From Halorhabdus sp. CBA1104 (GTDB taxonomy: Archaea > Halobacteriota > Halobacteria > Halobacteriales > Haloarculaceae), in NCBI RefSeq assembly GCF_009690625.1, contig NZ_CP033878.1:1984001-2048000 (forward strand): DNA of 64,000 nt. Direction: 5' to 3'. Position 1 is the stretch's first letter; each line of letters starts with the position of its first letter. The notes under the pieces were generated by a model. It was not told where the DNA came from, searched no databases, and saw nothing but the letters and a program-made list of their open reading frames with translations. Both the position numbers and the translations under genes were made by a program. This document shows positions 1,629-18,570 of this stretch, in pieces.

Positions 1629-3869
1629 ATGACATATACCGAACGCACCGGGGGCCACCACCCCGGACCACCGCGGTTTCTGCAACTCGGAGAGCGTATC
1701 GTCGATCCCGGCTTCGTCGACCTGGGACACGGCTACGACAGAGACAACCTCGCGCCGACGATCGCGGGTAACCCAGAGCGAGATCCCGACGCCTACGACG
1801 CCGACGCGTTCACCTGGCAGCTCCGGGAGAAACCAGCGGGATCGAAGGCTGGCCTGGAGTATGCCCCCAACCCGTACAGCGACGCGGTGCGGTACGACGA
1901 GGGATCGCACAATACGGCCGAGTTCCAGCCGGACGAGCCGGGAACGTACGTGCTGGAACTGACGGCCCCGGACGGCACCCACGAGTTGACCATCGAGGTG
2001 TTCCCTGGACCGGGCCTCGAAGACGGCTTCGAGCAATTCGATCTCGACGATGACGACGCCTGGGGCGAGAAAGCGGGTGGCCCACCACGCATCGACCTCG
2101 AGAGCCACTACGACCCAGAGTCCGAATCGTTCGTGATCGAATCGAACCCGGAACTCGCGCCCGACAGCTTCGCGACCGAATCTGATCTGCGCGTGTCGTT
2201 TCTGCCCGAAGACAGAGCCAGCCTCGATCGTGACGAGATCGACGTCGAGGGGAACACTGCCCGCGTGCCCATCGAGGCACTGGATGGGCCGACGCGAGTG
2301 TTCGCCGCTCCCTTCGATGGCGTCACACTCGGCGCGACCGACGAAATCGTCCTCGACCCGGACGAGACGGCGGTGTCTTACCCTAATCGTGCCCCCGAGT
2401 GGCTCGACGATGCCGTCGTTTACGAGATTTTCACGCGGTCGTTTGCCGGCCAAAAGGGCGAAACCGACTTCGAGTTCCTCACCGAGAAAGTAGAGTACCT
2501 CGACGAGTTGGGCATCGACCTCCTCTGGTTGACGCCGATCGTCCCTGCCTGGAGCGGGACGGCCGACACCCCGCCGGGCGGTCCCCACGGCTACGATACC
2601 AGCGATTACTTTACCGTCGCCGAAGACCTCGGCACGATCGAGGCGTTCGAGGCGTTCGTCGAGACCTGCCACGATCACGACATCAAAGTAGCGTTCGATC
2701 TCGTCGCCAATCACGTCGGCTGGGACCACGCGTACTGGCAAGACACGATCGCCGACCTCGGCGACGATCCCGAGGACCCCTACGCGTTTCCTGATATCCA
2801 GGCCTGGGACACCGAGTCGCCGTACTTCGACTGGTTCGACCGCCAGACAGGCTCGACTGACAACGATGCCACACCCGCACAGACGAGCTTCTTCGACGTC
2901 CGCCTACACCCGAACCTGAACTACGGCAATCTGGCGCTGCGAGAGCACATCCTCGCCGCCGTAGACTTCTGGTCGGATATCGTCGACGCGTTCCGGTGTG
3001 ACATCGCGTGGGGCGTCCCCCACTCCTTCTGGACGGAGGCCCGTCGGTTGACTCGCGAGAAAGATACCGACTTCATGTGGCTCGACGAGTCGATCCCGCG
3101 GATTCCGTCGATGGGCGAGTCCGAATTCGACCTGCACTTTGACTCGATGGGATACATGCACACGGCCCACGCCGTCGCTCGGGGCGAACGGCCGCCGGAA
3201 GACCTCTTCGAGAAGGTCCGAGCCCGGCGATCCTACGGGTTCCCCGAACACAGCCGCCTCATCAACGCCACGGAGAACCACGACGAATCACGCATCTATC
3301 ACGAGGCCAAAGCCAACGGGGTCCGAGAGGACCCGGCCGCCGCCGAGCGTGGGGCACTGTCGGCGTCGTTCACACTCCCGGGCGTACCGATGCTGTACTA
3401 CGGCCAAGAGCGACTCATCGGTGAGTACGGGCAACGCCGGGAGAGTCCATTCAGCGATCGGGAAGACGAGACCGACGACATCGAAGCCGACCCGTACAAG
3501 CGGGCGTTCATGAATTGGGAGGAATACGACGCCCCACACCTCGAGTTCGTCTCGGCCCTCGTCGACTTCTATCACGAGTCGCCAGTCACGGGTCCCGAGG
3601 CGACGCTGGTCCGTGAAGCCTACCGGACCGACGCCAGCGAGGACGTGCTGGTGTTTGGCCGCGACGCTGGCGAGGAAAAACGCGTCGTCGTGATCAACTT
3701 CGGTGCGGAACCCAAGCAGGTCGATCTACGCAGTGTCGTGGACACGCACGATCAGTTCTCCGATACCGACCTCGAAGTTGCGAGTGCCGAAGACGCGGTG
3801 ACCGTCGAAGTCGAGACGCTCGCCGTCTTCGAGACGCCGACGCTGTTCGATCAGGGCGACTCCAGGTGA
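1629..3869 (+). CDS. MalA-type alpha-amylase family protein (GH13), copy 1
   Basis: Intracellular alpha-1,4-glucan or cyclodextrin hydrolase/transferase of GH13. There is no signal peptide. Residues 1-120 form an Ig-like N-terminal domain that begins with the haloarchaeal HHPGPPRF motif; a second beta domain follows, and the TIM barrel starts near residue 255. Catalytic residues numbered from 1629 are Asp458 (FRCDIAW), Glu487 (LDESIP) and Asp552 (ENHDES). An in-frame ATG also lies at 1617, but the start at 1629 gives exactly the same N-terminal length as the paralogue at 18601-20883. A 377-nt block, 2379-2755, is identical to 19748-20124 on the other strand. Exact substrate is not readable from sequence. 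Confidence 0.9.
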   Translation: MTYTERTGGHHPGPPRFLQLGERIVDPGFVDLGHGYDRDNLAPTIAGNPERDPDAYDADAFTWQLREKPAGSKAGLEYAPNPYSDAVRYDEGSHNTAEFQPDEPGTYVLELTAPDGTHELTIEVFPGPGLEDGFEQFDLDDDDAWGEKAGGPPRIDLESHYDPESESFVIESNPELAPDSFATESDLRVSFLPEDRASLDRDEIDVEGNTARVPIEALDGPTRVFAAPFDGVTLGATDEIVLDPDETAVSYPNRAPEWLDDAVVYEIFTRSFAGQKGETDFEFLTEKVEYLDELGIDLLWLTPIVPAWSGTADTPPGGPHGYDTSDYFTVAEDLGTIEAFEAFVETCHDHDIKVAFDLVANHVGWDHAYWQDTIADLGDDPEDPYAFPDIQAWDTESPYFDWFDRQTGSTDNDATPAQTSFFDVRLHPNLNYGNLALREHILAAVDFWSDIVDAFRCDIAWGVPHSFWTEARRLTREKDTDFMWLDESIPRIPSMGESEFDLHFDSMGYMHTAHAVARGERPPEDLFEKVRARRSYGFPEHSRLINATENHDESRIYHEAKANGVREDPAAAERGALSASFTLPGVPMLYYGQERLIGEYGQRRESPFSDREDETDDIEADPYKRAFMNWEEYDAPHLEFVSALVDFYHESPVTGPEATLVREAYRTDASEDVLVFGRDAGEEKRVVVINFGAEPKQVDLRSVVDTHDQFSDTDLEVASAEDAVTVEVETLAVFETPTLFDQGDSR

Positions 3870-4034: not shown

Positions 4035-5633
4035 CTATCGGTCTGAGAGACGCCAGACGTATTCGTGGCCATCGAGGTCGATGCCGTCGACCGTGCGTGA
4101 GGCCGTCGTCACGTTGTTGTACGTAGAGAGGGTCCGGTCGCCGTGGGTTCGCGTCGAGACGAAGACACCGTTTTCGACCCGGTAGGTCGGTTGTTCGGCG
4201 AACAATGCCGGATTACTGGTTCGAGTCCCGATCATCTCCCGAAGGCCAGTCCAGATCGTGTGGGCATCTGGATCGTCGCCGGCCATCGCGGCTGCCTTGC
4301 GCTCCTCGTCGAAGGGGCCACGATGGAGGTAGCGGCTGTCGTCGTAGCCGAGTTTCTCGTTCATCTCCTCGAAGAACGCACGATCGTTCGACATGCCGAT
4401 CTCGTCACCGTAATAGATGATCGGCGTCCCCTCGATAGAGAACAGAAGCGAGTACGCAAGCAGGACACGCTCGGGATCTGTCTCGAGAAGGTCATACAGC
4501 CGCCCGGAGATACCCTCCCCGTCACGGAAGTCCCAGTCGTCGTCCCTGCGATACTCGTCGTTGAGGAGGCGGCGCTCGTCCGGGTCGACGAACTCCAAGG
4601 TCAACTCGTCGTGAACGCGCAGGAACGTAAACCACTGTGCGGTGTCGGGGATATCGAGTGTCTCTAGGCGTTCGAGCTCGTCGGTGATGTAGGTCGGATC
4701 GTTCTCGGCGAGCGCCAGGAAGAACGTCGGCATGATCGGAAAGTTGTACGCGACGTGGCACTCATCGCCGCTACCGAAGTAATCGACGACGTCGGACGGT
4801 TCCTGATTGGCCTCGGCGATCATGACCGTCCCCTCCGAAACGTAATCGAAGGCCGCCCGGAAGAGTTGCAAGATCGTGTGGGTCTCGGGGAGGTTCTCGC
4901 AGTTTGTCCCCTCACGTTTCCAGAGGAAGGGCGCGGCATCCATCCGGAACCCGTCGACGCCCGCCACCTGCCAGCGGGTCAGAATCCGGATCATATCGAT
5001 CAAGACGGCTGGATTCTCGTAGTTGAGATCCGGTTGGATGTCGTAGAACCGGTGGAAGTAGTACTCGTCTGTGGGTTCGCTGTACGTCCAGTTCGAGTCC
5101 GAGACGCCTTTCAACAGGAGACGCGTCTCGGCGTATTTGTCGGTATCGTCGTTCCAGATGTAGTAGTCACGGTACGCAGCATCCGGACTGTCACGAGCAT
5201 TTTGAAACCACGGATGCTGGTCAGATGTGTGATTGATGGGGACATCGAACACGACCTTGATATCGCGGTCGTGAGCTGCCTCGATGAACGTGAGGAACGC
5301 CTCGTTCCCGCCGAGTTCGTCTCGGACACGCGAGAAGTCAGCGACGTCGAATCCCTGATCGACCATCGGCGATTCGAGAACTGGCAACAGCCAGACGACC
5401 GTCACGCCCAGCTCTTCGAGATAGTCGAGTCGATCGATCAACCCGTGAAAGTCCTCGGCGAACAGATCGACGTACAGCGAGTAGACGACGCCGGTTTGAT
5501 ACCAGTCGGTCTCTTCGGGGACGTACGTGGCCTGTTCGTTGCGTTCCTCGAGTAATTCGAGGAGCGCGGCTTTCCTGTCTGGATACGCTGTCCCGTAGAT
5601 GTCTTCCCACAGCGTTTCGATTGTGTCTGTCAT
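4035..5633 (-). CDS. Trehalose-synthase-like GH13 (maltose alpha-D-glucosyltransferase type)
   Basis: A 532-aa single-barrel GH13 protein without signal peptide. The GFRMDAAPF segment (nucleophile Asp232), IAEANQ (Glu274) and RVHDE (Asp342) form the catalytic triad. The stretch after the nucleophile, with REGTNCENLPETH followed by DVVDYFG and DECHVAYNFP, is the pattern of the trehalose synthase subfamily GH13_16, which interconverts maltose and trehalose. Alpha-glucosidase activity remains possible because neighbouring GH13 subfamilies share much of this pattern. It lies in the glucan island, convergent with a MalA-type gene, and could divert maltose into the compatible solute trehalose. Family membership is secure, the exact reaction moderate. 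Confidence 0.82.
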   Translation of the reverse strand: MTDTIETLWEDIYGTAYPDRKAALLELLEERNEQATYVPEETDWYQTGVVYSLYVDLFAEDFHGLIDRLDYLEELGVTVVWLLPVLESPMVDQGFDVADFSRVRDELGGNEAFLTFIEAAHDRDIKVVFDVPINHTSDQHPWFQNARDSPDAAYRDYYIWNDDTDKYAETRLLLKGVSDSNWTYSEPTDEYYFHRFYDIQPDLNYENPAVLIDMIRILTRWQVAGVDGFRMDAAPFLWKREGTNCENLPETHTILQLFRAAFDYVSEGTVMIAEANQEPSDVVDYFGSGDECHVAYNFPIMPTFFLALAENDPTYITDELERLETLDIPDTAQWFTFLRVHDELTLEFVDPDERRLLNDEYRRDDDWDFRDGEGISGRLYDLLETDPERVLLAYSLLFSIEGTPIIYYGDEIGMSNDRAFFEEMNEKLGYDDSRYLHRGPFDEERKAAAMAGDDPDAHTIWTGLREMIGTRTSNPALFAEQPTYRVENGVFVSTRTHGDRTLSTYNNVTTASRTVDGIDLDGHEYVWRLSDR

Positions 5634-5813
5634 CTAATCACTCCGTTCGTGGCGTCCCGCGGAGGGGCACTCTGCAATACGTCACGATGTGAGAGGTGCA
5701 TACAAAGGTTCGCCGGTCGAGTCCCGACAGTTTCGAGGCGACGCTCGTCTGAGAGCGCGCCCAAGAGAGTGTCCGGAGGGACATTTAACTCCACTTACTC
5801 GAAAGGAAACGTA

Positions 5814-6404
5814 ATGAGCGACTCGACACGGCCAGGCCGAGGCGACGGGTTGCCAAACAGGACGCGTGCACATCGAGGTGGGGGGCACAGTCCACGACAT
5901 GGGCCGCCCGGTCGAGAGACGAGCGCGGCCACGTCCAACTACCGACGGGAGTTTCTGGCCATCGGGAACCGGACCGGCAGCGAGAAAGGGCACCTCGGTG
6001 TGGTGCTGGCCGATATCGGTCGGATTGCCGGTGAGGTCGGAAGCCTCACACTGCCGGTGATGCTGTATCTCCCTGTCGCCCCGGTCCGGGAACCGGTCGC
6101 CCTGTTCGAGGCGTGGATTGTGGCCCTGCTGACGATGATCGTTGTCGGGACGCTCCTCAGGGGTGGCTGGATCTCGCCACCGTTGACCGACGCTCCGGGG
6201 TGGGCTCGCTTGTTGCCCACGCTCATCTGGCTCAGACTACTCTATTTTAACGGCATCCTCCTCGTTGCGATCCACGGTGGGAGTATCGTGGCTGGCCAAA
6301 CAGGAGTGGCGGCTGGAGTGCTATGGTCGCTCGTTGTCAGCGCAACGGCGACAGGACTGTTCCCCCGTGTGGTCGATGCGTGGATGGCCGACACAGGGTC
6401 CTGA
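5814..6404 (+). CDS. Haloarchaeal membrane protein of unknown function
   Basis: Not recognised. The 196-aa product has a hydrophilic, R/G-rich N-terminus of about 70 residues and then about four hydrophobic segments, the clearest being LFEAWIVALLTMIVVGTLL, LPTLIWLRLLYFNGILLV and VAAGVLWSLVVSATATGLF. An upstream in-frame GTG at 5649 would add 55 residues rich in R and S that look non-coding. An AT-rich ATTTAA element about 28 nt before the ATG at 5814 fits a leaderless transcript. It is divergent from the trehalose-synthase-like gene and upstream of the sugar ABC operon; no link can be shown. Confidence 0.6.
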   Translation: MSDSTRPGRGDGLPNRTRAHRGGGHSPRHGPPGRETSAATSNYRREFLAIGNRTGSEKGHLGVVLADIGRIAGEVGSLTLPVMLYLPVAPVREPVALFEAWIVALLTMIVVGTLLRGGWISPPLTDAPGWARLLPTLIWLRLLYFNGILLVAIHGGSIVAGQTGVAAGVLWSLVVSATATGLFPRVVDAWMADTGS

Positions 6405-6770
6405 AAGCGAAGCGATGAACGAGGGGAGTGTGACCTAGCGGTCCCCGCAGGTGGTTGTACGTGACGTGGAGAAGAGAGATGGGGTTGGAGGCTCTGTCCG
6501 CGGGGTGATGGCAATGTGTGAGACCGGATAGAACGAGCGCGCACTGTCTGCCAGCAGTGGGGAACGATCGAGTGTGAGCGAGAGAGACCAGCGACGACAA
6601 AGGGGCCAAGACAGCGCCAGGAGAGCCCGTCCAGGAGTACGAAGGGCGTATACAGCACGCCGAAGACCCCCAACGGCTGTCGGCCCCATTGTCGACGACC
6701 GGACACAGTACAGCAGACGGTAGAGCAGCGCTGTGAATCTTCGAGTACGTAATCATGTCACTAGAGGATG
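6405..6770. other. Intergenic region without supported gene
   Basis: About 370 nt before the ABC operon promoter. Reading frames here are arginine-rich or interrupted and have no recognisable motif. I see no RNA gene or repeat. Confidence 0.5.
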
Positions 6771-6810
6771 TTATTTGTCGGTAGTGAGAGAAGTTTACAA
6801 CAACTGTAGT
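6771..6810 (+). promoter_or_regulatory. Promoter and candidate TrmB site of the sugar ABC operon
   Basis: A TATA-like TTATTTG lies at 6771-6777. An imperfect palindrome, TTACA then 5 nt then TGTAG, lies at 6795-6809, about where transcription would start. It shares the 8-mer TTTACAAC (6794-6801) with the palindrome found upstream of the TrmB gene at 14642-14661. A regulator sitting on the start site would block transcription. The link is inferred from two sites only. Confidence 0.35.
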
Positions 6811-6856
6811 CATACCAGCGGAAGATTGAAGTGACCCCAGAACACTGGAATAAAAT

Positions 6857-8332
6857 ATGCCCAACGGCAACAACGGCAGTTCGTCGAGCGTGTCCCGGCG
6901 ACGGTTCATCCAGGCTGCTGGCGCGGCAGGCGTGACAGCGGGTCTCGCAGGATGTGGCGGTGGAGACACCACGACAGACAGTGGGGGCGATACGGGCGGA
7001 GACGACCAAGACGGTGCCACGACTGGCACGGCCGACGGTGGCGAGATCGGCGGGAAGGTCTCGGTGTTCGCGGGGAAGGTGTGGGAACAGAACGAGGACA
7101 AGTTCACGAAAGTCCTTCACGAACAGGGCGTGCCGGATTCGGTCGACATCCAACTCAACTCCGCTGCCCAACAGACGGGGAGCAAACAGCAGCGTCTCAG
7201 AACACAGATCAACGCGGAGTCGAAGGACCCCGATCTCGTGTTGACGGACAACGGATGGACGATCCCGTTCATCGTTCGGGGCGATCTCGTCAATTTGACT
7301 GAGGCGATGAGCGACGAGTTCATCTCCCAGGTCTACGACGAAGGCGTCCGGTCGATGGTACAGACAGGACAACACCCAGAGACGGGCGATCTGTACTCGA
7401 TTCCGGTCTTCCCGGACTTCCCGACCGTGCAGTATCGAAAGGACCTGTTCAAGGAAGTCGGCTACACCGAGTCTGACTTCGAGCAGTGGCAATCGAACCC
7501 GATCGGCTGGGATACGTTCTCGTCTATCGTCGCAGAAGCCAAGCAAGCCGGCGACGTGGATTATGGCCACGTCTGGCAGGGCAAAAATTACGGTGGACTG
7601 TCGTGTTGTACGTTCAACGAGTTCCTGACGAGCATGGGTGGGTCCTTCTTTGGCGGCGAGGACAACCTCTTCGGGCCGATCGGCGATCGACCGGTCACGA
7701 TCGGCGACGAGAAAGCCATCGACGGTATCGAGCTGGCACGCGATCTGGTCTACGGTGAGGGCGAATCGCCGATGGACGTCGCGGGCGTCTCACCCCAGGA
7801 GGTCGGTGGCTGGATCGAACCCGACACGAAGAGTATCTTCGAAGCCCAAAACGCCGTCACCCAGCGCAATTGGACCTACGCCATCGGTGGTGCAGCAGAC
7901 AAATTCGAGGGCACGGAAGCAGAACTCGGCGTGATGCCCCTGCCGAAAGGCCCCAACGGCTCCTGGCACGCCCAGGGTGGCTGGATCCTCTCGATGAATC
8001 CCTACAGCGACAACAAGGCTGCAGCCAAGGAAGTCATCAAAGCCTGGTGGAGCGACGCGATGCACAAGACCCAACTCGACGTCGCAAACTACATGCCGCC
8101 CAAGCCGTCGCTGTACGACTACGTCAAGGAACACCCGACCTACGGGCCGTACTTCAAACCCCTCAATTACGCCGCCGAGAACCTCATGCCACGGCCGACG
8201 ACATCCGTCTGGCCCACCCAGTCGACTGTTATCGCGAAACAAGTCAACGCTGCACTCACGAAAAAGAAGTCGGCAGCCGACGCAGCCCAGCAATTGGAAA
8301 CCAAGATCAAAGCGATCGAAGACCAGGCCTAG
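6857..8332 (+). CDS. Sugar ABC transporter substrate-binding lipoprotein (CUT1 type)
   Basis: Extracellular sugar-binding protein of an ABC importer, family 1 (MalE/UgpB-like), 491 aa. A twin-arginine signal (SRRRF, Arg14-Arg15), a hydrophobic segment and the lipobox LAGC (Cys33) mark Tat export and lipid anchoring. A T/G/D-rich linker typical of haloarchaeal lipoproteins follows. It heads an operon with two permeases and an ATPase. Position between malQ/GH13 genes and GH32/TrmB suggests malto-oligosaccharides or sucrose as ligand, but the ligand cannot be read from sequence. Confidence 0.92.
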   Translation: MPNGNNGSSSSVSRRRFIQAAGAAGVTAGLAGCGGGDTTTDSGGDTGGDDQDGATTGTADGGEIGGKVSVFAGKVWEQNEDKFTKVLHEQGVPDSVDIQLNSAAQQTGSKQQRLRTQINAESKDPDLVLTDNGWTIPFIVRGDLVNLTEAMSDEFISQVYDEGVRSMVQTGQHPETGDLYSIPVFPDFPTVQYRKDLFKEVGYTESDFEQWQSNPIGWDTFSSIVAEAKQAGDVDYGHVWQGKNYGGLSCCTFNEFLTSMGGSFFGGEDNLFGPIGDRPVTIGDEKAIDGIELARDLVYGEGESPMDVAGVSPQEVGGWIEPDTKSIFEAQNAVTQRNWTYAIGGAADKFEGTEAELGVMPLPKGPNGSWHAQGGWILSMNPYSDNKAAAKEVIKAWWSDAMHKTQLDVANYMPPKPSLYDYVKEHPTYGPYFKPLNYAAENLMPRPTTSVWPTQSTVIAKQVNAALTKKKSAADAAQQLETKIKAIEDQA

Positions 8333-8614
8333 GACGATCGCGTCGAAGGCCGGTCCGGCTCGATAGGGAACACCGACCAAAGTCGACAGGGTGCCTGTAG
8401 TGGAGAAGGGGCCCAGGGACGGCGGATACCCGTGCTATCAGGCACCTCCTCGAGACGGAGAGCAGTCTGGACCGATCCCGTCGGCATGGAGAGACAACCA
8501 AAGCTGGGACACACGTTCAAACGAATCACAATATTCAAATGATAGACTTGAGGATGACCGAACGCATGATTGAGTGGCAATCACACGCAAATACTGACAG
8601 AGGTGCCCCGACCC
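8333..8614. other. Gap between binding protein and permease genes
   Basis: A 282-nt gap, long for an operon. It contains an AT-rich stretch (about 8521-8545, CACAATATTCAAATGATAG) that could act as a second promoter or processing site and so allow more binding protein than permease. No gene seen. Confidence 0.4.
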
Positions 8615-9613
8615 ATGGGAGTTGAGGGAACACGGTCCTCAGAGCGGGGTGGCGTCGTCTCGCGCCTGGCGACGTGGACGGAAAACCTGAGCGAGCAAAC
8701 CTACGCGTTGTTGTTGCTGGCTCCAGGATTTCTCATCTTGCTCCTGTTCGCCTTCTGGCCGCTTGCATCGTCGTTCCGGATGTCGTTCTTCGAAGACGTC
8801 ATCGTCGGCCCGGAGAGTCTGGGCGGGTTCATCGGGCTCGAAAATTACGTCAGTTTGCTCACCGACTCGAACGCCTTCGCGACGTTGACGTTCCTGGATC
8901 CGGCGATGGAAACGCCGCTCCTCCAGCAGGCGCTCGTCGTGACGCTGTTGTTCGCGATCATCAGCGTCGCCGGGGAGACCCTGCTCGGATTCGCGTACGC
9001 GATGTTGATGAAAGCGGAGTATCGTGGCCAGCGACTCGTCCGCGTCCTGATCATCATCCCGTGGGCCATTCCGATCGTCATCCAGGGGATGATCTTCTTC
9101 CTCCTGTTCCGGCCCGGGTACGGATTGTTGACCGGCCCACTCCATCAGCTGGGAGTGTTCTCACAGCTACCGCTGGGTGATGCATTCAGTGGCTTTGTCA
9201 TCGTCACGGTAGCCGACATCTGGAAGACGTCGGCGTTCATGGCGCTTTTGATCCTGGCCGGGATGGAGAGCGTCAACCAGGACCTGTACGAAGTAGCCGA
9301 CGTGATGGGTGCCTCGACCTGGCAGCGGTTCCGGTACATCACGTTCCCACTGGTCTTCCCCGCGCTCATGGTCGCGATGCTATTCCGGACGATGGGGGCA
9401 CTCCGCGTCTACGGGATCATCGAGTCCACCGGAGTCGGTTGTTCGACAGTCCCATCGATGACGTGTCTGGTGACGGAGTTTACCTTCGGATCGACGACAC
9501 TGTACGGGTCAGCAGCAGCCGTGAGCGTCCTCATCGCCATCACGGTCGGCGTGTTCATCTCGGTATATCTGCTGTTCATCCGGTACAGCAACCAGAGCCT
9601 GGGGTTGACATAG
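8615..9613 (+). CDS. Sugar ABC transporter permease (MalF type)
   Basis: Inner-membrane permease of the binding-protein-dependent family (BPD_transp_1), 332 aa with about six membrane segments. The ATPase-contact EAA loop is visible as YEVADVMGASTWQRFRYITFP. I place the start at ATG 8615 because GAGGTG at 8600-8605 is a well-spaced ribosome-binding site; an in-frame TTG at 8570 would add 15 residues. Its partner permease starts one base after the stop. Together with the ATPase it imports the sugar captured by the upstream lipoprotein. Confidence 0.9.
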   Translation: MGVEGTRSSERGGVVSRLATWTENLSEQTYALLLLAPGFLILLLFAFWPLASSFRMSFFEDVIVGPESLGGFIGLENYVSLLTDSNAFATLTFLDPAMETPLLQQALVVTLLFAIISVAGETLLGFAYAMLMKAEYRGQRLVRVLIIIPWAIPIVIQGMIFFLLFRPGYGLLTGPLHQLGVFSQLPLGDAFSGFVIVTVADIWKTSAFMALLILAGMESVNQDLYEVADVMGASTWQRFRYITFPLVFPALMVAMLFRTMGALRVYGIIESTGVGCSTVPSMTCLVTEFTFGSTTLYGSAAAVSVLIAITVGVFISVYLLFIRYSNQSLGLT

Positions 9614-9614
9614 T

Positions 9615-10574
9615 ATGAGTATCGACGCACAAGACCACGACGACGCAGAAACGCTCGACGACCAGGACGAGGAGTCGAAAAACCGAATCCAAGCGTGGGC
9701 CGCCGACTGGATACGCAACCCACAGAAGGCCTACGCGGTGCTGGGTGTGTTCATGGGCGGCGTCTTGCTGACGACGACGTTGTTCCCACTGTACTGGCTG
9801 TTCGCGGTCGCGATGGCACCGCCAGGCCAGACGAACATCCCACTGATCCCCACGGAGATCGATCTCTACGCCTTCGTGGATATCTTCCAGCAAGTGCCGT
9901 TCGCGCGGTTCATGTTCAACAGCCTGTTTTACGCGACTACCGTCACCGTCGTCGTGATTCTGGTCGCGAGTCTGGCAGGATACGCGTTCGGCCGTCTGGA
10001 TTTCCGCGGCAAACTTCCGCTGTTGTTCTCACTGCTCGTACTGAGCTGGTTCCCGCCCGCGACACTGTTCTTGCCGTTGTTCCGGGCGTTCAACCAGCAG
10101 GTGAAGATGCTCGGCCTCTTCATGCTCCCGGCGGAGGTATACGGGACCCCAGGGGCCGTGATCGCCCCGCTCAGTGCATTCACGATGCCGCTTGCGGTCT
10201 TCATCCTCATGACCTTCTACGCGCAGATCCCCGACGGACTCGAAGACGCCGCCAGAGTCGAAGGGTCGACCCGGATCGGGGCGCTGTTCAGAGTCATCAT
10301 GCCGTTGTCGGCACCGGGAGTGGCCACAGCCGGCATCCTGACGTTCATTACTGTCTACACGGAGTTTTTCTTCTCGTTCCTGATGACCGGCGATGCAGCA
10401 AGCGAGTGGGCACCGATCGTCAACGGCGTCCTCGCCTTCCAGTCGCGGTACACCGTTCGGTACGATCTACAGGCCGCAGCGAGTCTCGTCGCGATCGTGC
10501 CGGTCGCGATCCTCGTCGTCCTCGCACAGGATAAGATCGTAAGCGGACTGACACAAGGAGCACTCAAGGAGTAA
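9615..10574 (+). CDS. Sugar ABC transporter permease (MalG type)
   Basis: Second membrane subunit, 319 aa with six predicted membrane segments. The EAA loop reads LEDAARVEGSTRIGALFRVIMP. Its first 35 residues are a highly acidic cytoplasmic tail, usual in haloarchaea. The ATG lies one base after the stop of the MalF-type gene, so the two are translationally coupled, and the ATPase gene starts 6 nt after its own stop. Confidence 0.92.
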   Translation: MSIDAQDHDDAETLDDQDEESKNRIQAWAADWIRNPQKAYAVLGVFMGGVLLTTTLFPLYWLFAVAMAPPGQTNIPLIPTEIDLYAFVDIFQQVPFARFMFNSLFYATTVTVVVILVASLAGYAFGRLDFRGKLPLLFSLLVLSWFPPATLFLPLFRAFNQQVKMLGLFMLPAEVYGTPGAVIAPLSAFTMPLAVFILMTFYAQIPDGLEDAARVEGSTRIGALFRVIMPLSAPGVATAGILTFITVYTEFFFSFLMTGDAASEWAPIVNGVLAFQSRYTVRYDLQAAASLVAIVPVAILVVLAQDKIVSGLTQGALKE

Positions 10575-10580
10575 CTAACG

Positions 10581-11771
10581 ATGGCACGAGTCAAACTCGA
10601 CGACGTATCGAAATCATACGAGGACGTAATGGCAGTCAACAACATGAATCTCGATCTGGAGGACGGCGAGTTCATCACGCTCGTCGGTCCGTCCGGCTGT
10701 GGGAAATCGACGACACTCGAGACAGTCGCCGGGCTCACCAAGCCGACATCGGGGACCATTCACATCGGCGACAGGGAAGTCACGAACCTCCCGCCAAAGG
10801 ACCGTGGGATCGCGATGGTGTTCCAGAACATCGCACTGTTCCCCCACATGGACGTCTATGACAACATCTCCTTTGGCCTCCGGCTTCGTGATTTCCCGAA
10901 AGACGAGATCGACGAGCGGGTCGAAGACGCAGCCGAGGTTGTCGAGCTGGAGGGGATGCTCGACCGGATGCCCGACGAGTTGTCCGGTGGCCAGCGGCAG
11001 CGCGTCGCGATTGCTCGGTCGATCGTCCGGGACCCGGACGTGTTCCTGATGGACGAGCCGCTGGCGAATCTGGATGCCAAACTCCGGGTCAACATGCGGA
11101 CCGAACTCCAGCGGCTACACAAGCAACTGGAGACGACGATCATCTACGTCACCCACAACCAGGCCGAAGCGATGACCATGTCCGATCGGATCGCCGTCAT
11201 CAACGGGGGCGAACTCCAACAAATTGCCCCGCCGTTGACCTGTTACAACGAGCCGGCCAACCGGTTTGTCGCGGGATTCATCGGCTCGCCGTCGATGAAC
11301 TTCGTTCCCGCAACGGTGGGAGACGGCGACCTGCAGGCGGACGGGTACTCCCTGTCGTACGATACCGCCGCCGTCGACGGCCTCGCCGCCCGCGAGGCGG
11401 TCGAAATCGGCATCCGGCCCGAAGATATCTATCTCGTCGAAAACGAAGCAGAAGCGGCCGAGCCAAGTACCCGCGTCGAGGTCGTCACCGACGTGCTCGA
11501 ACCGATGGGCGATGAGATTTTCGTCTATCTCAAACCGGTCGAGGCCGGCAGTGAAGACGGGATGGGAAGCGTCGAAGAGCGTGAAGGCCTGTTGATGAGT
11601 GTCGATCCGGCGACCGACATCACCGAAGACCAAACGGTCGAGATCGTCTTCGACCGGTCCCGGCTCCACCTCTTCGATACGGATAGTGGCGCTGCGATCT
11701 CACACGGAGTGATCCAGGGTGCGATGATGGGTACCGGGTCCGGCGAAGACGAAGCACAAGCCGACGACTGA
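10581..11771 (+). CDS. Sugar ABC transporter ATP-binding protein (MalK/MsmX/UgpC type)
   Basis: ATPase that powers the importer, 396 aa. Walker A is GPSGCGKS near residue 37, the signature is LSGGQRQR near 135, Walker B with catalytic Glu is VFLMDEPLAN near 155, and the switch His is in YVTHNQ near 192. The C-terminal third is the TOBE/regulatory domain of the MalK group. The C-terminus is very acidic (GEDEAQADD). Such ATPases often serve several sugar importers; no second MalK is present here. Confidence 0.93.
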   Translation: MARVKLDDVSKSYEDVMAVNNMNLDLEDGEFITLVGPSGCGKSTTLETVAGLTKPTSGTIHIGDREVTNLPPKDRGIAMVFQNIALFPHMDVYDNISFGLRLRDFPKDEIDERVEDAAEVVELEGMLDRMPDELSGGQRQRVAIARSIVRDPDVFLMDEPLANLDAKLRVNMRTELQRLHKQLETTIIYVTHNQAEAMTMSDRIAVINGGELQQIAPPLTCYNEPANRFVAGFIGSPSMNFVPATVGDGDLQADGYSLSYDTAAVDGLAAREAVEIGIRPEDIYLVENEAEAAEPSTRVEVVTDVLEPMGDEIFVYLKPVEAGSEDGMGSVEEREGLLMSVDPATDITEDQTVEIVFDRSRLHLFDTDSGAAISHGVIQGAMMGTGSGEDEAQADD

Positions 11772-11826
11772 ACGGCGGTCGTTTTTCGGGCGATAGTCTG
11801 GCCGGACCGATCGTCGGGCGTCTGAC

Positions 11827-13308
11827 TCACTCGTTGGCGTGCCAAATATCGTCCATCGTCCAGACGTCCAGAGAGTGCAGGTGGGCCGATCCCCGACGCG
11901 CGAGCAACGAGATAGCAGTACTCTCCACGTTCGGATACACCCGCGCCGTAAGCGTCTGGCGGCCGTTGGCGAACACCTCGACGATAGTTGTATCGACGAA
12001 CACCCGGAGGTCCAGTAACTCGTCGTCGTCGAGTACGAGCGAACCGACTTCCGGCGGGCGGGCAAGTACCGCGGCGTCGGTACTCGAGTGACTCGTGTCG
12101 ATCCCGAGGGCGTCGCTTCCACGCCAGTAGGAGATCGTCGTCCGTTCGGACCCATCCTGGGACCCCAACACGCCGAGATCGAGTTGGTCAGCATCACCGA
12201 GATCGACCGTCGCGTGGAGTTCGATGCTCCGACCGCCGGGTTCGGGGAACTGCCACTCGTCTTCGGGCGAGAGGGAGACTGATTCGACACGACGGTGATC
12301 GCGCCGTATCGTCCGGAGTTCTTCGACGGGTTCGAGGCGGAGTTGGCCGTCCTCGATCGAGAGGTCGCGGGGCAGACCGATCACGCCCGCCCAGCCCTCA
12401 GTGGGAGTGTCCTGCCAGTTCCGCCGGCCCTCGACCACGTTGAAGAAGGCGACGCGTCGGTCGCCCTCGTGGAGGACCGACGGTGCGTGGAGGTTCCCCT
12501 GGTCGACGGGGCCGTGATTCAAGCGGCCGTGCGTTTCGATATCGAAGGTCGGCCCTGTATCGTCGTACTCACCGACGTAATAGTGAGGCCCTCGCGGATG
12601 GGAAAAACAGAGAAGGACGTGTTTTCCGTCGAGGGCAAAGAAGTTCGGGACCGCCCCGTCTTCGTCGGGGTCGGTATAGAACCCGTCTTCGAGGAGTGGC
12701 CCGTGATAGGTCCACTCCCGGAGGTCGTCGGATTCGAAGAGAAACTCGGTGGCCCGGCGGTCGGTCTTCCAGCCCGACAGCAAGCGATAGATCTCACCGT
12801 CGGCCCACAGGCAGGGATCGAAGATCTCGTAGGGCGCGTCCTCGTCGACCGGAACGACCGGATTCGCCTCGAACTTCTGGAAGTCGAGGAGATACTCGTC
12901 AGTTCCAGTCGCGAGGCAGATCCCCGCATCCGTTCCGAAGTACGCCAGGAGTACGCGCTCGTCTTCGACGAGTGCCTGTCCGCTGTAACACCCGCGTTCG
13001 GGACCACTGTCTGGCCCGAGAGCGATCGGGAGATCACGCCAGTGGACGAGATCGTCGCTGACAGCGTGCCCCCAGTGCATAGCTGCGTCCCACTCGCGGG
13101 TTTCGGGGATAGTCGGCGGCCAAAACTGATAGAACAGATGATACCGACCGTTCCAGTACAGGGCTCCATTAGGATCGTGAAGCACTCCCCCCGGCGGGAA
13201 AAAATGGTAGTTGGGACGGAACGGGTCATCGTCGAAGCGTCGTCGCCGGGCCCGCGCCTCGGCGGTTCGCTCCGCAATCCGGTCCGGAAGTGCCGTCACG
13301 TGGTCCAT
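11827..13308 (-). CDS. GH32 beta-fructosidase family protein with atypical motifs
   Basis: A 493-aa protein with a five-bladed propeller followed by a beta-sandwich, the GH32 layout of invertases, levanases and sucrose-6-phosphate hydrolases. No signal peptide, so it acts in the cytoplasm on sucrose or short fructans. The nucleophile motif is VLHDPNG (Asp45) and the transition-state Asp164 sits in FDPC instead of RDP. The usual acid/base EC motif is absent; the corresponding stretch reads DPDEDGAVPNFF, where Glu216 may act instead. TATAAAA 25 nt before the ATG indicates a leaderless transcript. It lies between the CUT1 operon and the TrmB gene, which supports sucrose use. Family call is firm; activity is not proven. 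Confidence 0.85.
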   Translation of the reverse strand: MDHVTALPDRIAERTAEARARRRRFDDDPFRPNYHFFPPGGVLHDPNGALYWNGRYHLFYQFWPPTIPETREWDAAMHWGHAVSDDLVHWRDLPIALGPDSGPERGCYSGQALVEDERVLLAYFGTDAGICLATGTDEYLLDFQKFEANPVVPVDEDAPYEIFDPCLWADGEIYRLLSGWKTDRRATEFLFESDDLREWTYHGPLLEDGFYTDPDEDGAVPNFFALDGKHVLLCFSHPRGPHYYVGEYDDTGPTFDIETHGRLNHGPVDQGNLHAPSVLHEGDRRVAFFNVVEGRRNWQDTPTEGWAGVIGLPRDLSIEDGQLRLEPVEELRTIRRDHRRVESVSLSPEDEWQFPEPGGRSIELHATVDLGDADQLDLGVLGSQDGSERTTISYWRGSDALGIDTSHSSTDAAVLARPPEVGSLVLDDDELLDLRVFVDTTIVEVFANGRQTLTARVYPNVESTAISLLARRGSAHLHSLDVWTMDDIWHANE

Positions 13309-13331
13309 ACGTTGGTGCGAGCGTGCGGGAG

Positions 13332-13338
13332 TATAAAA
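13332..13338 (-). promoter_or_regulatory. TATA box of the GH32 gene
   Basis: TATAAAA on the plus strand (TTTTATA in the gene's direction), 24-30 nt before the ATG at 13308. This spacing is the standard one for leaderless haloarchaeal mRNAs and supports that start codon. Confidence 0.6.
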
Positions 13339-13389
13339 CCCGACGGACGGCCCCGACGTTTCGTCGGCGAATTCGTCTCGAAGCGGTCG

Positions 13390-14493
13390 TCAGTCTTCGA
13401 TCGATTCGATGACGATGCGGGTCGCCTCGTAATCTTCGATGACGGCACCCCAGCCCCCGATCTCGATTTCCCGCTCTCCAGTGTCTAAGACGATGGTCGC
13501 CTGCCCGCCGTGATACAGGACTGGCGCGTCGGCCGGATATTTCTCGAGTCCGGTGTAGTAGACGTCGACGATCGTCCCGGCGAGGGAACGAGACGCCTCG
13601 GTGTCGACAGCAACAGCGTCGATCGTCGCCGTAATCGTGGCCCCGTCCGAGAGGGGCGTGGCAATGTCTCGGATGCATTCACGGACGTTGATGTACGTCA
13701 TCGGTGGGGCGTCAGCGTCCGTCACGAGTTGCTCTAAGTTCGACTCCCAGATACCGGCGAGGAAAAACCAGTGGAAGATGTAGGCGTAGGTTCGATCCTT
13801 GACGATCATCCCGTATCGATTCATCGACAGTTTGTGCGGCGCGAAACAGGTCGTCGTCCGATCGACGACCGCCACGAAGGGGACCGGGACTGGCCGGTAA
13901 CCGACTTCCGTCGCGACGTTTTCCAGCTCGTCGAGGTCGGGAAACGGTTCGTCACTGTCTTCGTCGATATAGATCCCAATCCGAATGTGAACGCCGTTCT
14001 CGTGGGCCGCCTCAAGCGTGGGGCGGAGTTGCTCGAACTGGTCGAGGTTCACTGCCAGCTGCACCTGGTCGCTCGCTTCGCGGATGATCGCCGCAGCTTG
14101 ATCGAGAACCGTGTCGATCCGCTTGACGAAATTCACCGTGTGAGTCTCGATTGTCGGCGCTTCCCACAGGTTCTCGATCTCGTCGGCAGCAGTCTCGAAG
14201 TTGGTCGCCCGCTCACGGAGATCCTCCAAGATGGCCGCGGGACTGAACGCTCTGGCCCGGAGGCTGTCCTGTTCGTAGGTCTCGATGTACCCAGCTTCCT
14301 CAAGATCTCGCAGCACGTCGTAGATCCGCGGATCGGGAACGTCACTCTCCTTGGCGATTGTCGTCGCCGACGCCGATCCGAGCTTGAGAATCTCGACGTA
14401 CGCACTGGCCTGGTACGGAGAGAGCCCAGCGTCTTCGAGTATCGTCGTGAGTGTCGCCTCGTTCATCGCCTGCGTTTCGGAAGTGTCAGTCAT
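13390..14493 (-). CDS. TrmB-family sugar-responsive transcriptional regulator
   Basis: A 367-aa DNA-binding regulator. Residues about 15-80 form a winged helix-turn-helix (LSPYQASAYVEILKLG, then VPDPRIYDVLRDLEEAGYIE). The C-terminal half is the TrmB sugar-binding domain. TrmB proteins usually repress or activate sugar uptake and glycolysis/gluconeogenesis genes depending on a bound sugar. The start at ATG 14493 gives the family N-terminus; an in-frame TTG at 14637 would add 48 residues rich in R. It lies in the middle of the glucan island, next to GH32, and a palindromic site lies upstream at 14642-14661, suggesting autoregulation. Confidence 0.9.
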   Translation of the reverse strand: MTDTSETQAMNEATLTTILEDAGLSPYQASAYVEILKLGSASATTIAKESDVPDPRIYDVLRDLEEAGYIETYEQDSLRARAFSPAAILEDLRERATNFETAADEIENLWEAPTIETHTVNFVKRIDTVLDQAAAIIREASDQVQLAVNLDQFEQLRPTLEAAHENGVHIRIGIYIDEDSDEPFPDLDELENVATEVGYRPVPVPFVAVVDRTTTCFAPHKLSMNRYGMIVKDRTYAYIFHWFFLAGIWESNLEQLVTDADAPPMTYINVRECIRDIATPLSDGATITATIDAVAVDTEASRSLAGTIVDVYYTGLEKYPADAPVLYHGGQATIVLDTGEREIEIGGWGAVIEDYEATRIVIESIED

Positions 14494-14641
14494 TGTATTC
14501 GATAGATGTCGTCGATACGATCGCGGTCGGCACGCTACCGGCGATTGTCCGGCTGTACCGACGTGTCGAACCCGGGCCACCAGTATCGCCTCGCAAAAGC
14601 GACGTGAACTGCGGAGTGTCGTGACCCATACTAGCAATAGA

Positions 14642-14661
14642 TTTACAACTCGAATTGTAAA
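14642..14661. promoter_or_regulatory. Palindromic candidate TrmB operator
   Basis: TTTACAA, six bases CTCGAA, then TTGTAAA: perfect 7-bp arms, total 20 nt, in an AT-rich patch of GC-rich DNA. It lies about 150 nt upstream of the TrmB start codon. The first eight bases recur at the CUT1 operon promoter (6794-6801). The symmetry and spacing suit a dimeric winged-helix regulator; identity of the binding protein is inferred. Confidence 0.45.
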
Positions 14662-14856
14662 AATCTTTTCGCGGGTCAGTTCGTCGACTCGAGGGACATA
14701 ACGCGCCTTCGAAGAGACGCCCGCAGACGGCGACGTCCCGGACAGCGGTGGGACACAGCGAACCGATCGGCTGGCACAGACGAATTTGCCCGTGATGGCG
14801 ACGTCCCTCGGGTACTCCTGAACGGCTGGTGACCGTAAACTGGCACTGGCACCTGA

Positions 14857-15674
14857 TCAGGCAACGCTGTCTTCGGCGGGAAACTCGAACACTCGCTGTT
14901 CACACTCCGGGCAGACGAGGAGATCCTTCGGGGGACACCGGAATCCGCGTAGGCCCCACAGCAGTTGGCCTCTGTCGAGGGGACGATCTCGGAGCCACAG
15001 ACGGGACAGACAGAGAGAAACATCCGGAGAGAGCGTGCCCCGGCGAGTCGAAGCGAATCGTCGAGAGACGATTCCAGCGCCCGATAGGCACCCAGTTCGG
15101 TGATTGCGACGAGTTGGGAGAGATATTCGTCGTTGGCCCCGAGCACGAACCACAGTTGGTCCTCGACGTCCAGTGGTTCGGCGTCGGTGATATGTGGAAT
15201 CGTTCGTTCGATCTCGGTTGCAAGCTCCTCGTCGGAAAGGGCCGCGAGTCGCTCCATTTCGTCGTGCCAACTCGAATCGACCGCATCAGTGAGTTCGACC
15301 GTGTCGTCGGCGACCGTGACGACACCAGCTGCCGCGAGTTCGTCCAAGACGGCATCGCCGTCGTCTTCGACGTCGCCGAGCGATGTAGATGCTTCGGGAC
15401 CTGGTGTCGGTGTTCCGTCGTGAAATATCGAGGACGGGATCGGGGCCGCCTCGACGAGGCGCGGAGCGAACTTCGGCGTGTACGGGACCACATAGCCACG
15501 GAGGTAAACCAGGCCCGCGCCGATCGCGGCTACCGCGAGACTGGTGAGCGTTCGCTCTCGTCGATACAGCAGCGCCGCGGCCACACCCACCAGAACGGTG
15601 TTGACAACAGTACACGGCAAGCACCGATTCTCGCCGGTGTAGGCTGGCTCCGTGAGTTGCTCGAGAGGATCCAT
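14857..15674 (-). pseudogene. Membrane-anchored zinc-ribbon protein, frameshifted near its end
   Basis: Coding starts at ATG 15674 (MDPLEQLTEPAY). Two hydrophobic segments (about residues 22-62) precede an acidic domain of about 150 residues and a zinc ribbon, CPVCGSEIVPSTEANCCG. After that the frame changes: the continuation FRCPPKDLLVCPECEQRVFEFPAED, which completes the ribbon with CPEC, is in another frame and stops at 14857. The break lies at about 14941-14955 and corresponds to one lost base. Without a correction the first frame reads on as arginine- and serine-rich nonsense down to 14676. Either a recent mutation or a sequencing error. Function unknown; CLPC in the N-terminus may be a thiol pair. 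Confidence 0.65.
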
Positions 15675-16273
15675 ATCTCCGATTGTCGTGACGGGTCGTA
15701 ATGACTGCTGTGGATACGATGTCTCACAATGACATTCACGTGGCGGAGGGCCAATCGAGCAAGCGAGAGCGAAGGCAGTCTCGATAGATGATCGCCAGGC
15801 CGCCTGCCAGGGGCGCGTTCTCGTCGTTGTGGGGGCACCCCGGAAGGAAATGCAGCGGCTGTTCGAACGTCGAGCAGTGAACCCAACCGAGCGGGCGTCT
15901 ATCACCGAACTGCGCCAACGATCGATCAAAACAGCAATGAGCGAGGCCCGCAGATGAGCGTACGAGACCCAAACGAGAGCTCGCGTTGTGAGACGGGCCA
16001 GGACCGATAACGCCGTCAGTGCCGACACCGGGATGCCAGCAAAGCGAAAGGGGACGGTAGGCTCGAAACGAGCCAGCAGGCAGGTTGCCGTCCCGTCTCT
16101 CGGGACGATCGGACGGCTATATCCGGTCGATCCGGGAGTGACCGACGACGATTCGTCTCACAGAGTGACGCGGACAAGAACACCCCCACAGGAGGCACCG
16201 ACTCGGTGCCGACGGTCGAAGAAACTAACAGAAGAGCGGAGCATCGAGCGCTAGTGACGGACACTGCACACAG
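15675..16273. other. Intergenic region of about 600 nt, possible gene remnant
   Basis: No gene with a normal start is supported. On the plus strand a frame open from about 15731 to 15957 reads like coding sequence (for example GRVLVVVGAPRKEMQRLFERR) but lacks a good start at its head, and could be a 3' remnant. Other open frames here are arginine-rich. Confidence 0.35.
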
Positions 16274-16280
16274 TATAAGA
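16274..16280 (+). promoter_or_regulatory. TATA-like element before amylosucrase
   Basis: TATAAGA whose first base lies 20 nt before the ATG at 16294. It is slightly closer than the usual 25-27 nt of leaderless genes, so it may or may not be the functional promoter. Confidence 0.35.
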
Positions 16281-16293
16281 GAAGCCTGATACG

Positions 16294-18570
16294 ATGGTTA
16301 GACACGATCCCGATGTCAACCCAGCCAACTGGGACGACAACAATCCGGTAGAAGCACTACACGAACGACTCACGGACCGCTATGCCGACCACCCTGAGGG
16401 CGAGACCATCCTCGACCGTCTCGAAGCGAACCTACAGACGTTCTGGGAAGCGTTCTCGACGGTCTACGGCGACGACGCCCGATCGGCCGAGTGGGCGATT
16501 CGAGCCGTCGATGCGGCGGTTTCGGGATACGAAAGTCGCGACGAGGAACTCCGGGCACTCGATCGTGAGCGCGCCCAGCAGCCCGACTGGTTCCAGCAAC
16601 CCGACCACGTCGGGTACATGGCCTACGTAGACCTGTTTGCCGGTGATCTCGATAGTGTCCGCGAGAAGATCCCGTACCTGAAAGAGCTCGGGGTGACCTA
16701 TCTCCACCTGATGCCACTGCTAGAGCCCCGGGACGGGCGGTCTGACGGAGGGTACGCAGTCAAAGACTACCGGTCGGTCGATTCCGATCTCGGGACGATG
16801 GGGGATCTCCGCACCCTCGCCGCGGATCTCCGAGAGGAAGACATCTTGCTATCGTTGGACTTCGTGATGAACCACACTGCCCGAGAACACGAGTGGGCAC
16901 AAGCCGCCCGTGCCGGCGAGAAGCGCTTCGAGCAGTTCTATCTCACCTTCGAGGACCGGACCGAGCCCGACCAATACGAGGAGACCGTTCCCGAGGTCTT
17001 TCCCGACTTTGCGCCGGGCAATTTCACCTACGATGAAGCGATGGACCGGTGGGTCTGGACGAGTTTCTACGACTTCCAGTGGGATCTCGATTACGCGAAT
17101 CCGGACGTCTTCGTTCAGATGCTGCGGGAGATGCTGTTTATCGCAAACGTTGGGACGGATTCGCTTCGCCTCGATGCAGTCCCGTTCCTCTGGAAAGAGA
17201 TGGGGACAGACTGCCGGAACCGGCCGGAGGCCCACGAGATTCTCCGGGCCTACCGCGCCCTGGTGCGGATTGCCGCGCCGGGTGTCCTCTTTAAGGCCGA
17301 AGCGATCGTCTCACCCGAAGAGACGGTCAAGTACCTCGGGACGGGCGGCCACGAGGGCGAGGAATGTGAGATTGCCTACGGCGCGCCGCTGATGGCCCAC
17401 GCCTGGCACGCACTGGCCCGTGAGGACGCCCGATTGCTCTCTCAGGCGATGGCAAAACTCCCACAGACACCCGAGTCGGCGACCTGGCTCAACTACGTCC
17501 GGTGTCACGACGACATCGGCTGGGGACTGGACAACGGCGACGTCCAAGCCGCCCTCGGGCGCGATCCGACGGCCGAACGCCGGTTCTGTGCGGACTTCTA
17601 CGCCGGCGACACGACAGACAGTTACGCAGAGGGGTACCGTTTCCAGGTCGATGAAGCGACCGGCGAGGCCCGTACCTCCGGAACGATGGCGGCCCTAACC
17701 GGTCTCCAGCGTGCCCAAATCGAAGGCGACAGTGAAGATGTCGATACGGCGATCCGCCGTGGCCTCCTGTTGCACAGCGTCGTCTACGCAATGAAGGGCA
17801 TGCCACTCCTCTACAGCGGCATCGAGATCGGACAGCGCAACGACTTCTCGTATCTCGCTGATCCGCTCAAGGCCGACGACAACCGGTGGGTCCACCGCCC
17901 GTCGTTCGATTGGGACGCCGCCGAGAAGCGAACCGAAGACGATACCGTCCAACAGCGGCTATTTGACGGGATCGCCGCGCTCTCGGATGCCCGAAAGGGA
18001 CTGACGCCGGTACACGCCCAAGGCGACGAGCGCGTCCTCGAGGTCGGGCCAGCCGAGGTCTTCGCCGTCGAGCGCGTCTACGACGACGAGCGCATGCTGG
18101 CATTCGCGAACTTCTCGGGCGAGCCACAGGCAGTGCCACTGGACGGACTCGCGGACGTCTGGACGCGGGGCGGACTCGTAGACATCCTCGACGACGAGAC
18201 AGTGACCTTCGCCGACCGCCGACTCTTGGTGGCTCCGTACGGGTATCGGTGGGTCCAGCCCGCTCCCGAGTTCGAGTCGGGTGAGCCAGTCTCGACGCCC
18301 ATCGCGGTCGATGTCGAGACCGAATGGGGAACGGAAGTCTACCTCACAGGGAGTCTCGACGCACTCGGGAACTTCGATCCCGACAAAGCAGTCCCGATGG
18401 CCGCCGACGAGTACCCGACGTGGACGGCCGAGATCGAGGTTCCCGAAGGCACCACCTTCGAGTTCGAGTGGCTCAAAAAGCGTGACGGCAAGGTAGTCGA
18501 GTGGTCACCAGACCGCTACGGGGCAACGGCCGGCGATGGGACAGTACTCAGCGGGCTGGATCGTCCGTAA
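16294..18570 (+). CDS. Amylosucrase (GH13_4) with C-terminal CBM20 starch-binding domain
   Basis: Predicted to build alpha-1,4-glucan from sucrose, releasing fructose. The first 100 residues match the helical N-domain of amylosucrases. The barrel carries SDGGYAV (sucrose-site Asp), DFVMNHT, SLRLDAVPF (nucleophile Asp294), FKAEAI (Glu336) and RCHDDIGW (Asp406), spaced like the catalytic triad of Neisseria amylosucrase (Asp286, Glu328, Asp393 from memory), and NRWVHR supplies the Arg expected to pair with the sucrose-site Asp. From about residue 665 an added domain (VEVYLTGSLDALGNFDP-like start, TTFEFEWLKK, VEWSPDRYG) is a CBM20, not part of typical amylosucrases. No signal peptide: cytoplasmic. 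Other GH13 sucrose enzymes such as sucrose hydrolase are the main alternative. Confidence 0.85.
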   Translation: MVRHDPDVNPANWDDNNPVEALHERLTDRYADHPEGETILDRLEANLQTFWEAFSTVYGDDARSAEWAIRAVDAAVSGYESRDEELRALDRERAQQPDWFQQPDHVGYMAYVDLFAGDLDSVREKIPYLKELGVTYLHLMPLLEPRDGRSDGGYAVKDYRSVDSDLGTMGDLRTLAADLREEDILLSLDFVMNHTAREHEWAQAARAGEKRFEQFYLTFEDRTEPDQYEETVPEVFPDFAPGNFTYDEAMDRWVWTSFYDFQWDLDYANPDVFVQMLREMLFIANVGTDSLRLDAVPFLWKEMGTDCRNRPEAHEILRAYRALVRIAAPGVLFKAEAIVSPEETVKYLGTGGHEGEECEIAYGAPLMAHAWHALAREDARLLSQAMAKLPQTPESATWLNYVRCHDDIGWGLDNGDVQAALGRDPTAERRFCADFYAGDTTDSYAEGYRFQVDEATGEARTSGTMAALTGLQRAQIEGDSEDVDTAIRRGLLLHSVVYAMKGMPLLYSGIEIGQRNDFSYLADPLKADDNRWVHRPSFDWDAAEKRTEDDTVQQRLFDGIAALSDARKGLTPVHAQGDERVLEVGPAEVFAVERVYDDERMLAFANFSGEPQAVPLDGLADVWTRGGLVDILDDETVTFADRRLLVAPYGYRWVQPAPEFESGEPVSTPIAVDVETEWGTEVYLTGSLDALGNFDPDKAVPMAADEYPTWTAEIEVPEGTTFEFEWLKKRDGKVVEWSPDRYGATAGDGTVLSGLDRP

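Follow-up and report, generated by a model that had tools for sequence, protein, structure and literature searches.

Two inverted GH13 paralogues of Halorhabdus sp. CBA1104, referred to here as A and B, very probably undergo recurrent intragenomic gene conversion. Both lie in the stretch of DNA that we analyzed (64,000 nucleotides, referred to as the window), and positions 2379-2755 on the forward strand, within A, equal the reverse complement of 19748-20124, within B, with zero mismatches over 377 nt. A first-pass annotation of the window had reported this perfect identity and proposed recent gene conversion as its cause; direct comparison (2379-2755 versus 20124-19748) bears out the identity, and the proposed cause is strongly supported by the pattern of identity along the genes, by a permutation test and by AU tests of tree topology.

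The paralogue pair and its gene cluster

The window genome (X) is a single contig of 2.63 Mb and is 99.99% complete; the window covers its bases 1,984,001-2,048,000. A comparison with plasmid records produced no match. The window genome was compared with congeneric relatives that include Halorhabdus amylolytica H27 (G001) and Halorhabdus salina FL145 (G002, referred to as Y). The copies of A and B are denoted X_A and X_B in the window and Y_A and Y_B in H. salina, and G3_B and G4_B are the B genes of the further Halorhabdus genomes G003 and G004. The coordinates of the genes and of the segments discussed below are collected in Table 1.

On the basis of profile searches, A and B are predicted members of GH13 (the alpha-amylase superfamily): they score 128 and 123 bits, respectively, with PF00128 (cut-off 22), and they carry the motifs DLVANH, FRCDIAWG, WLDES and NHDES. 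With the MalA-type haloarchaeal alpha-amylase model NF041321 both remain below the 875-bit cut-off (419 bits for A and 402 for B), which a neighboring gene at 21590-23521 passes with 876 bits. The two genes, inverted relative to each other and 15 kb apart, are old GH13 paralogues within a Halorhabdus starch/maltodextrin gene cluster, and A is present in just two of seven Halorhabdus species (it is missing from G001, G003 and G004). The segment between them had been labeled as containing an amylosucrase. The interior genes given that name encode GH13 proteins, but the specific label is not established, because the top curated model for the gene at 16294-18570 is a trehalose-synthase N-terminal domain with a score far under its cut-off.

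Several features of the cluster were observed in passing. The two inner GH13 genes (4035-5633 and 16294-18570) occupy mirror positions inside the A/B pair and are 31% identical, and the second of them carries a CBM20 starch-binding domain. We considered whether a two-gene unit had been duplicated in mirror image (A together with 4035-5633, and B together with 16294-18570); such an event would be very old at best, given that low identity of the inner genes. The malQ gene (GH77; 23-1507) adjoins A in the window species and in H. salina; in G001, G003 and G004 it lies between glgP and malA and is only 67% identical. Open reading frames of 1292-1793 aa with the same N-terminal and catalytic modules occur at locus L033 (G001:C5) and at loci of G027 and G060, and judging by these modules they apparently encode larger multi-module amylases.

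Table 1. Genes, shared tracts and other segments of the A/B pair, in window coordinates
Feature	Position	Strand	Remarks
Paralogue A, predicted GH13, 750 aa	1617..3869	+	Pfam Alpha-amylase at residues 271-637
Paralogue B, predicted GH13, 760 aa	18601..20883	-	ORF reaches 21039; homologues favor the ATG at 20883
Interior between A and B: GH13, sugar ABC transporter, GH32, TrmB regulator, GH13+CBM20	4035..18570		Same orientation in H. salina
Main putative conversion tract in A	2379..2755	+	Codons 255-380, DLVANH motif inside; 377 nt identical to B
Main putative conversion tract in B	19748..20124	-	Identical to the copy in A
Second significant A:B patch, 64 nt identical	2223..2286	+	Partner 20217-20280 (-)
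Catalytic segment, FRCDIAWG at 2991-3014	2868..3147	+	Homogenized in H. salina, partly in X; orthology rejected
Third significant A:B patch, 63 nt exact	3521..3583	+	Partner 18920-18982 (-)
Fourth significant A:B patch, 61 nt exact	3642..3702	+	Partner 18801-18861 (-)
Exact A:B patch of 59 nt	3792..3850	+	Partner 18653-18711 (-); individually non-significant (permutation)

Extent and significance of the shared tracts

A sliding-window alignment of A and B revealed patchy divergence around the one 377-nt exact run, with 50-nt windows ranging from about 50% to 98% identity (78% overall outside the tract). Both ends of the tract are abrupt, with several mismatches no more than 30 nt away on each side, and the mosaic continues beyond it, over about 2223-3147. 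Short exact patches (35-64 nt) are interleaved with patches of 52-75% identity; after the runs listed in Table 1, the next longest are 53 and 44 nt. Neither the extra patches nor the extent of the mosaic appeared in the first-pass annotation. Within the tract both dS and dN are zero over 81 synonymous sites, as compared with a dS of 0.9-1.15 and a dN of 0.21-0.25 in the segments that we treat as unconverted. The earlier descriptions of the flanks as differing at many silent sites, and of the N-terminal domains as only moderately alike, are both correct. A search for GC-biased conversion by means of GC3 gave no clear signal, because both copies of the tract have a GC3 of 0.81, near the gene averages (0.80).

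Identity of this length is far outside what the overall similarity of the two genes would produce: in 5000 simulated alignments of 2238 columns at 82% overall identity, the longest exact run did not exceed 73 nt. We also performed a permutation test of the Sawyer/GENECONV type on the 884 polymorphic columns of seven Halorhabdus genes (2000 permutations). For the pair X_A:X_B, 139 polymorphic sites in succession are concordant, whereas the 95th percentile of the null is 14; none of the permutations reached 139. Four fragments in all are significant for X_A:X_B and eight for Y_A:Y_B, and only these two pairs have fragments of more than 22 concordant sites (139 and 28 for the former; 49, 33, 23, 23 and 23 for the latter). 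Three other pairs have a single fragment each, of 10, 16 and 22 sites (the last being Y_B:G3_B at 3754-3786), and the remaining pairs have none.

Comparison with Halorhabdus salina and other species

In both X and H. salina, the paralogues within one genome are more alike in the tract than either is to its own orthologue. Identity over the tract is 100% for X_A:X_B, 80% for X_A:Y_A and 78% for X_B:Y_B, and X is 80-81% identical to the B genes of three further species; in 60-nt windows, X_A:Y_A drops to 73-88% in the tract versus about 86% elsewhere. The two genes are inverted relative to each other in H. salina as they are in X. Most 60-nt windows over 2508-3107, and the one at 3525-3584, show 95-100% identity between Y_A and Y_B, whose exact shared runs measure 140, 97, 80 and 74 nt. 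The sequence of this homogenized region is unlike that of X; H. salina underwent the same process independently. The H. salina copy of A (L034, G002:C20 at about 263,067) contains a 10-N scaffold gap inside the homogenized region, which explains its broken reading frame as an assembly matter.

The phylogenetic relationships of the four genes switch between the tract and its flanks, as seen in the AU tests. For segments 1617-2220 and 3168-3470, and for the pooled unconverted columns, A groups with A and B with B, and pairing by genome is rejected. For the tract, for segment 2868-3147 and for the pooled converted columns, A pairs with B inside each genome, and orthology is rejected (AU p = 3.8e-61, 1.9e-4 and 4e-98, respectively; with 20 sequences, p = 1e-77, 8e-5 and 8e-6). 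The contrast between flank and tract topologies places the duplication before the split of X and H. salina and the homogenization later, in each line. Whole-gene GH13 trees or orthology calls mislead for this pair.

The inverted placement of A and B had also led to the prediction that recombination between them would invert the segment that they enclose. We looked for such an inversion between X and H. salina and saw none: gene order and orientation are identical from malQ to glgP, so the prediction is unsupported and inverting crossovers between A and B are not seen between these two species. The flanks are unaltered and the interior is un-inverted in this comparison, a state that an even number of past inversions would likewise leave.

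Direction, alternative explanations and known systems

When the tree is built from unconverted columns, A forms a clade on a long stem (0.32), whereas with converted columns the pairs of X and Y both branch near B genes from other species (stem 0.04). A topology that excludes the X pair from the B group, corresponding to an A-like origin (tree 4), is rejected (p = 0.007 with the pooled converted columns and p = 0.039 with the tract); for the Y pair both the A-like and the B-like placements stand. The net direction of copying in X was probably from B to A, which is the simplest account of a B-like tract.

Under gene conversion, homologous recombination would overwrite short pieces of one paralogue with the other, chiefly in the part that encodes the catalytic barrel. 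The 377-nt tract would be the latest such event in X and the shorter patches the traces of earlier ones, and the N-terminal domains and some later segments would have escaped conversion and remained diverged. Established knowledge of homologous recombination supplies a plausible route: a break in one copy would lead to RadA-dependent strand invasion of the other, which would be copied over a short distance before the strand is released with no crossover. The window genome encodes a RadA protein (510 bits versus a curated cut-off of 361), and a RadA-type recombinase presumably acts here; we infer both the RadA mechanism and the non-crossover outcome. Two matched catalytic cores may, in addition, confer a selective benefit.

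Simple copying from B to A, on its own, leaves one observation unaccounted for, namely the raised silent divergence between species. Between X and Y, dS is 0.28-0.51 in ten neighboring genes, 0.47 in unconverted A and 0.76 in unconverted B, and it reaches 0.80-0.97 in converted segments (2223-2755, 2868-3147 and 3486-3583). Silent divergence in the converted segments is therefore about twice that of the neighboring genes, a factor that is approximate because NG86 estimates of dS near 1 are imprecise. Possibly, although we consider it somewhat unlikely, B (or A) first acquired a segment from another Halorhabdus in place of its own, and intragenomic conversion then spread it to the other copy. 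If B alleles had entered in this way from other Halorhabdus lineages before conversion, this would explain the raised dS, and it would also explain why X_B 19033-19335 (which matches A 3168-3470) groups with G4_B (92%) and not with Y_B, the sister expected for it. That grouping hints at interspecies recombination, which is common among haloarchaea (PMC4500145). The donor was not found, however, the best foreign match to the tract being 82% identical, and import of this kind would add to intragenomic conversion rather than replace it. The raised dS could alternatively stem from mutagenic repair, or from conversion that ran one way in X and the other way in H. salina. More speculatively still, the pair may repeatedly import and spread Halorhabdus alleles, or conversion between diverged paralogues may itself be mutagenic, either of which would lead to fast silent divergence; if so, the pair would be a diversity pump for the amylase catalytic core.

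The remaining explanations compete with gene conversion itself. An assembly artifact, with a collapsed or copied tract in one of the two genes, is improbable. The scaffold gap in the homogenized region of H. salina A does suggest that this repeat troubles assemblers, but the window genome is one nearly complete contig, the ends of the tract are sharp, several separate short patches are present as well, and an independently assembled species has the same pattern in a different sequence. Selection on the DNA (for an overlapping gene, or for a regulatory or structural element), which the first-pass annotation had offered as an alternative, would account for the identity of silent sites, and long overlapping open reading frames do occur in other frames, as expected for GC-rich DNA. 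The comparison between species refutes it: five homologous genes from four other Halorhabdus species match these 377 nt at only 78-82% identity and differ at about half of the synonymous sites, the variation between Halorhabdus species amounts to 19-22% and dS between X and Y in the tract is 0.96-1.10. We regard selection on the DNA as excluded, because the constancy of the tract is limited to the two copies within a genome, which leaves room solely for a constraint confined to a single species. A recent whole-gene duplication followed by patchy, accelerated divergence, with which the restriction of A to two Halorhabdus species would agree, is refuted by the flank trees and has a negligible chance of being correct, since unconverted A groups across species (X_A with Y_A, 100% support), the pairing of paralogues is rejected there and the dS between unconverted A and B is about 1.

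Gene conversion thus stands as our explanation, and the A/B pair is a clear example of it. Precedents exist in archaea and in haloarchaea, so the pair adds to a known process rather than revealing a new one; our literature search, to which most subscription papers were closed, turned up neither this pair nor amylase gene conversion in Halorhabdus. The mtrA-1/mtrA-2 genes of methanogens undergo recurrent gene conversion, documented in several lineages with GENECONV and with tests of topology (PMC4632066), and they resemble A and B in being archaeal paralogues with one domain homogenized and another part diverged. The mtrA copies share one operon, however, and the process there is far older, whereas A and B are inverted, 15 kb apart and located in a haloarchaeal carbohydrate cluster. 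In bacterial tuf genes and rRNA operons, according to one published summary (PMC8223754), concerted evolution proceeds by non-reciprocal homogenization in tracts of a few hundred bases, a likeness to the tract length described here, but those copies are near-identical throughout and A and B are mostly 20-40% diverged. A haloarchaeal parallel is Haloferax volcanii, a polyploid haloarchaeon with efficient intermolecular gene conversion in tracts often over 4 kb (PMC8223754, PMC11276520). There, conversion equalizes alleles of the same site across chromosome copies, whereas here the partners would be diverged paralogues and the exact tracts measure from tens of bases up to a few hundred; these shorter tracts fit the low identity of the flanks, as compared with the tracts of more than 4 kb in Haloferax (PMC8223754). 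Most haloarchaeal work concerns such allelic conversion with kilobase tracts; the A/B pair offers a well-resolved natural case between diverged, inverted haloarchaeal paralogues, replicated in two species, and gives short tracts, their edges and their direction in the wild.
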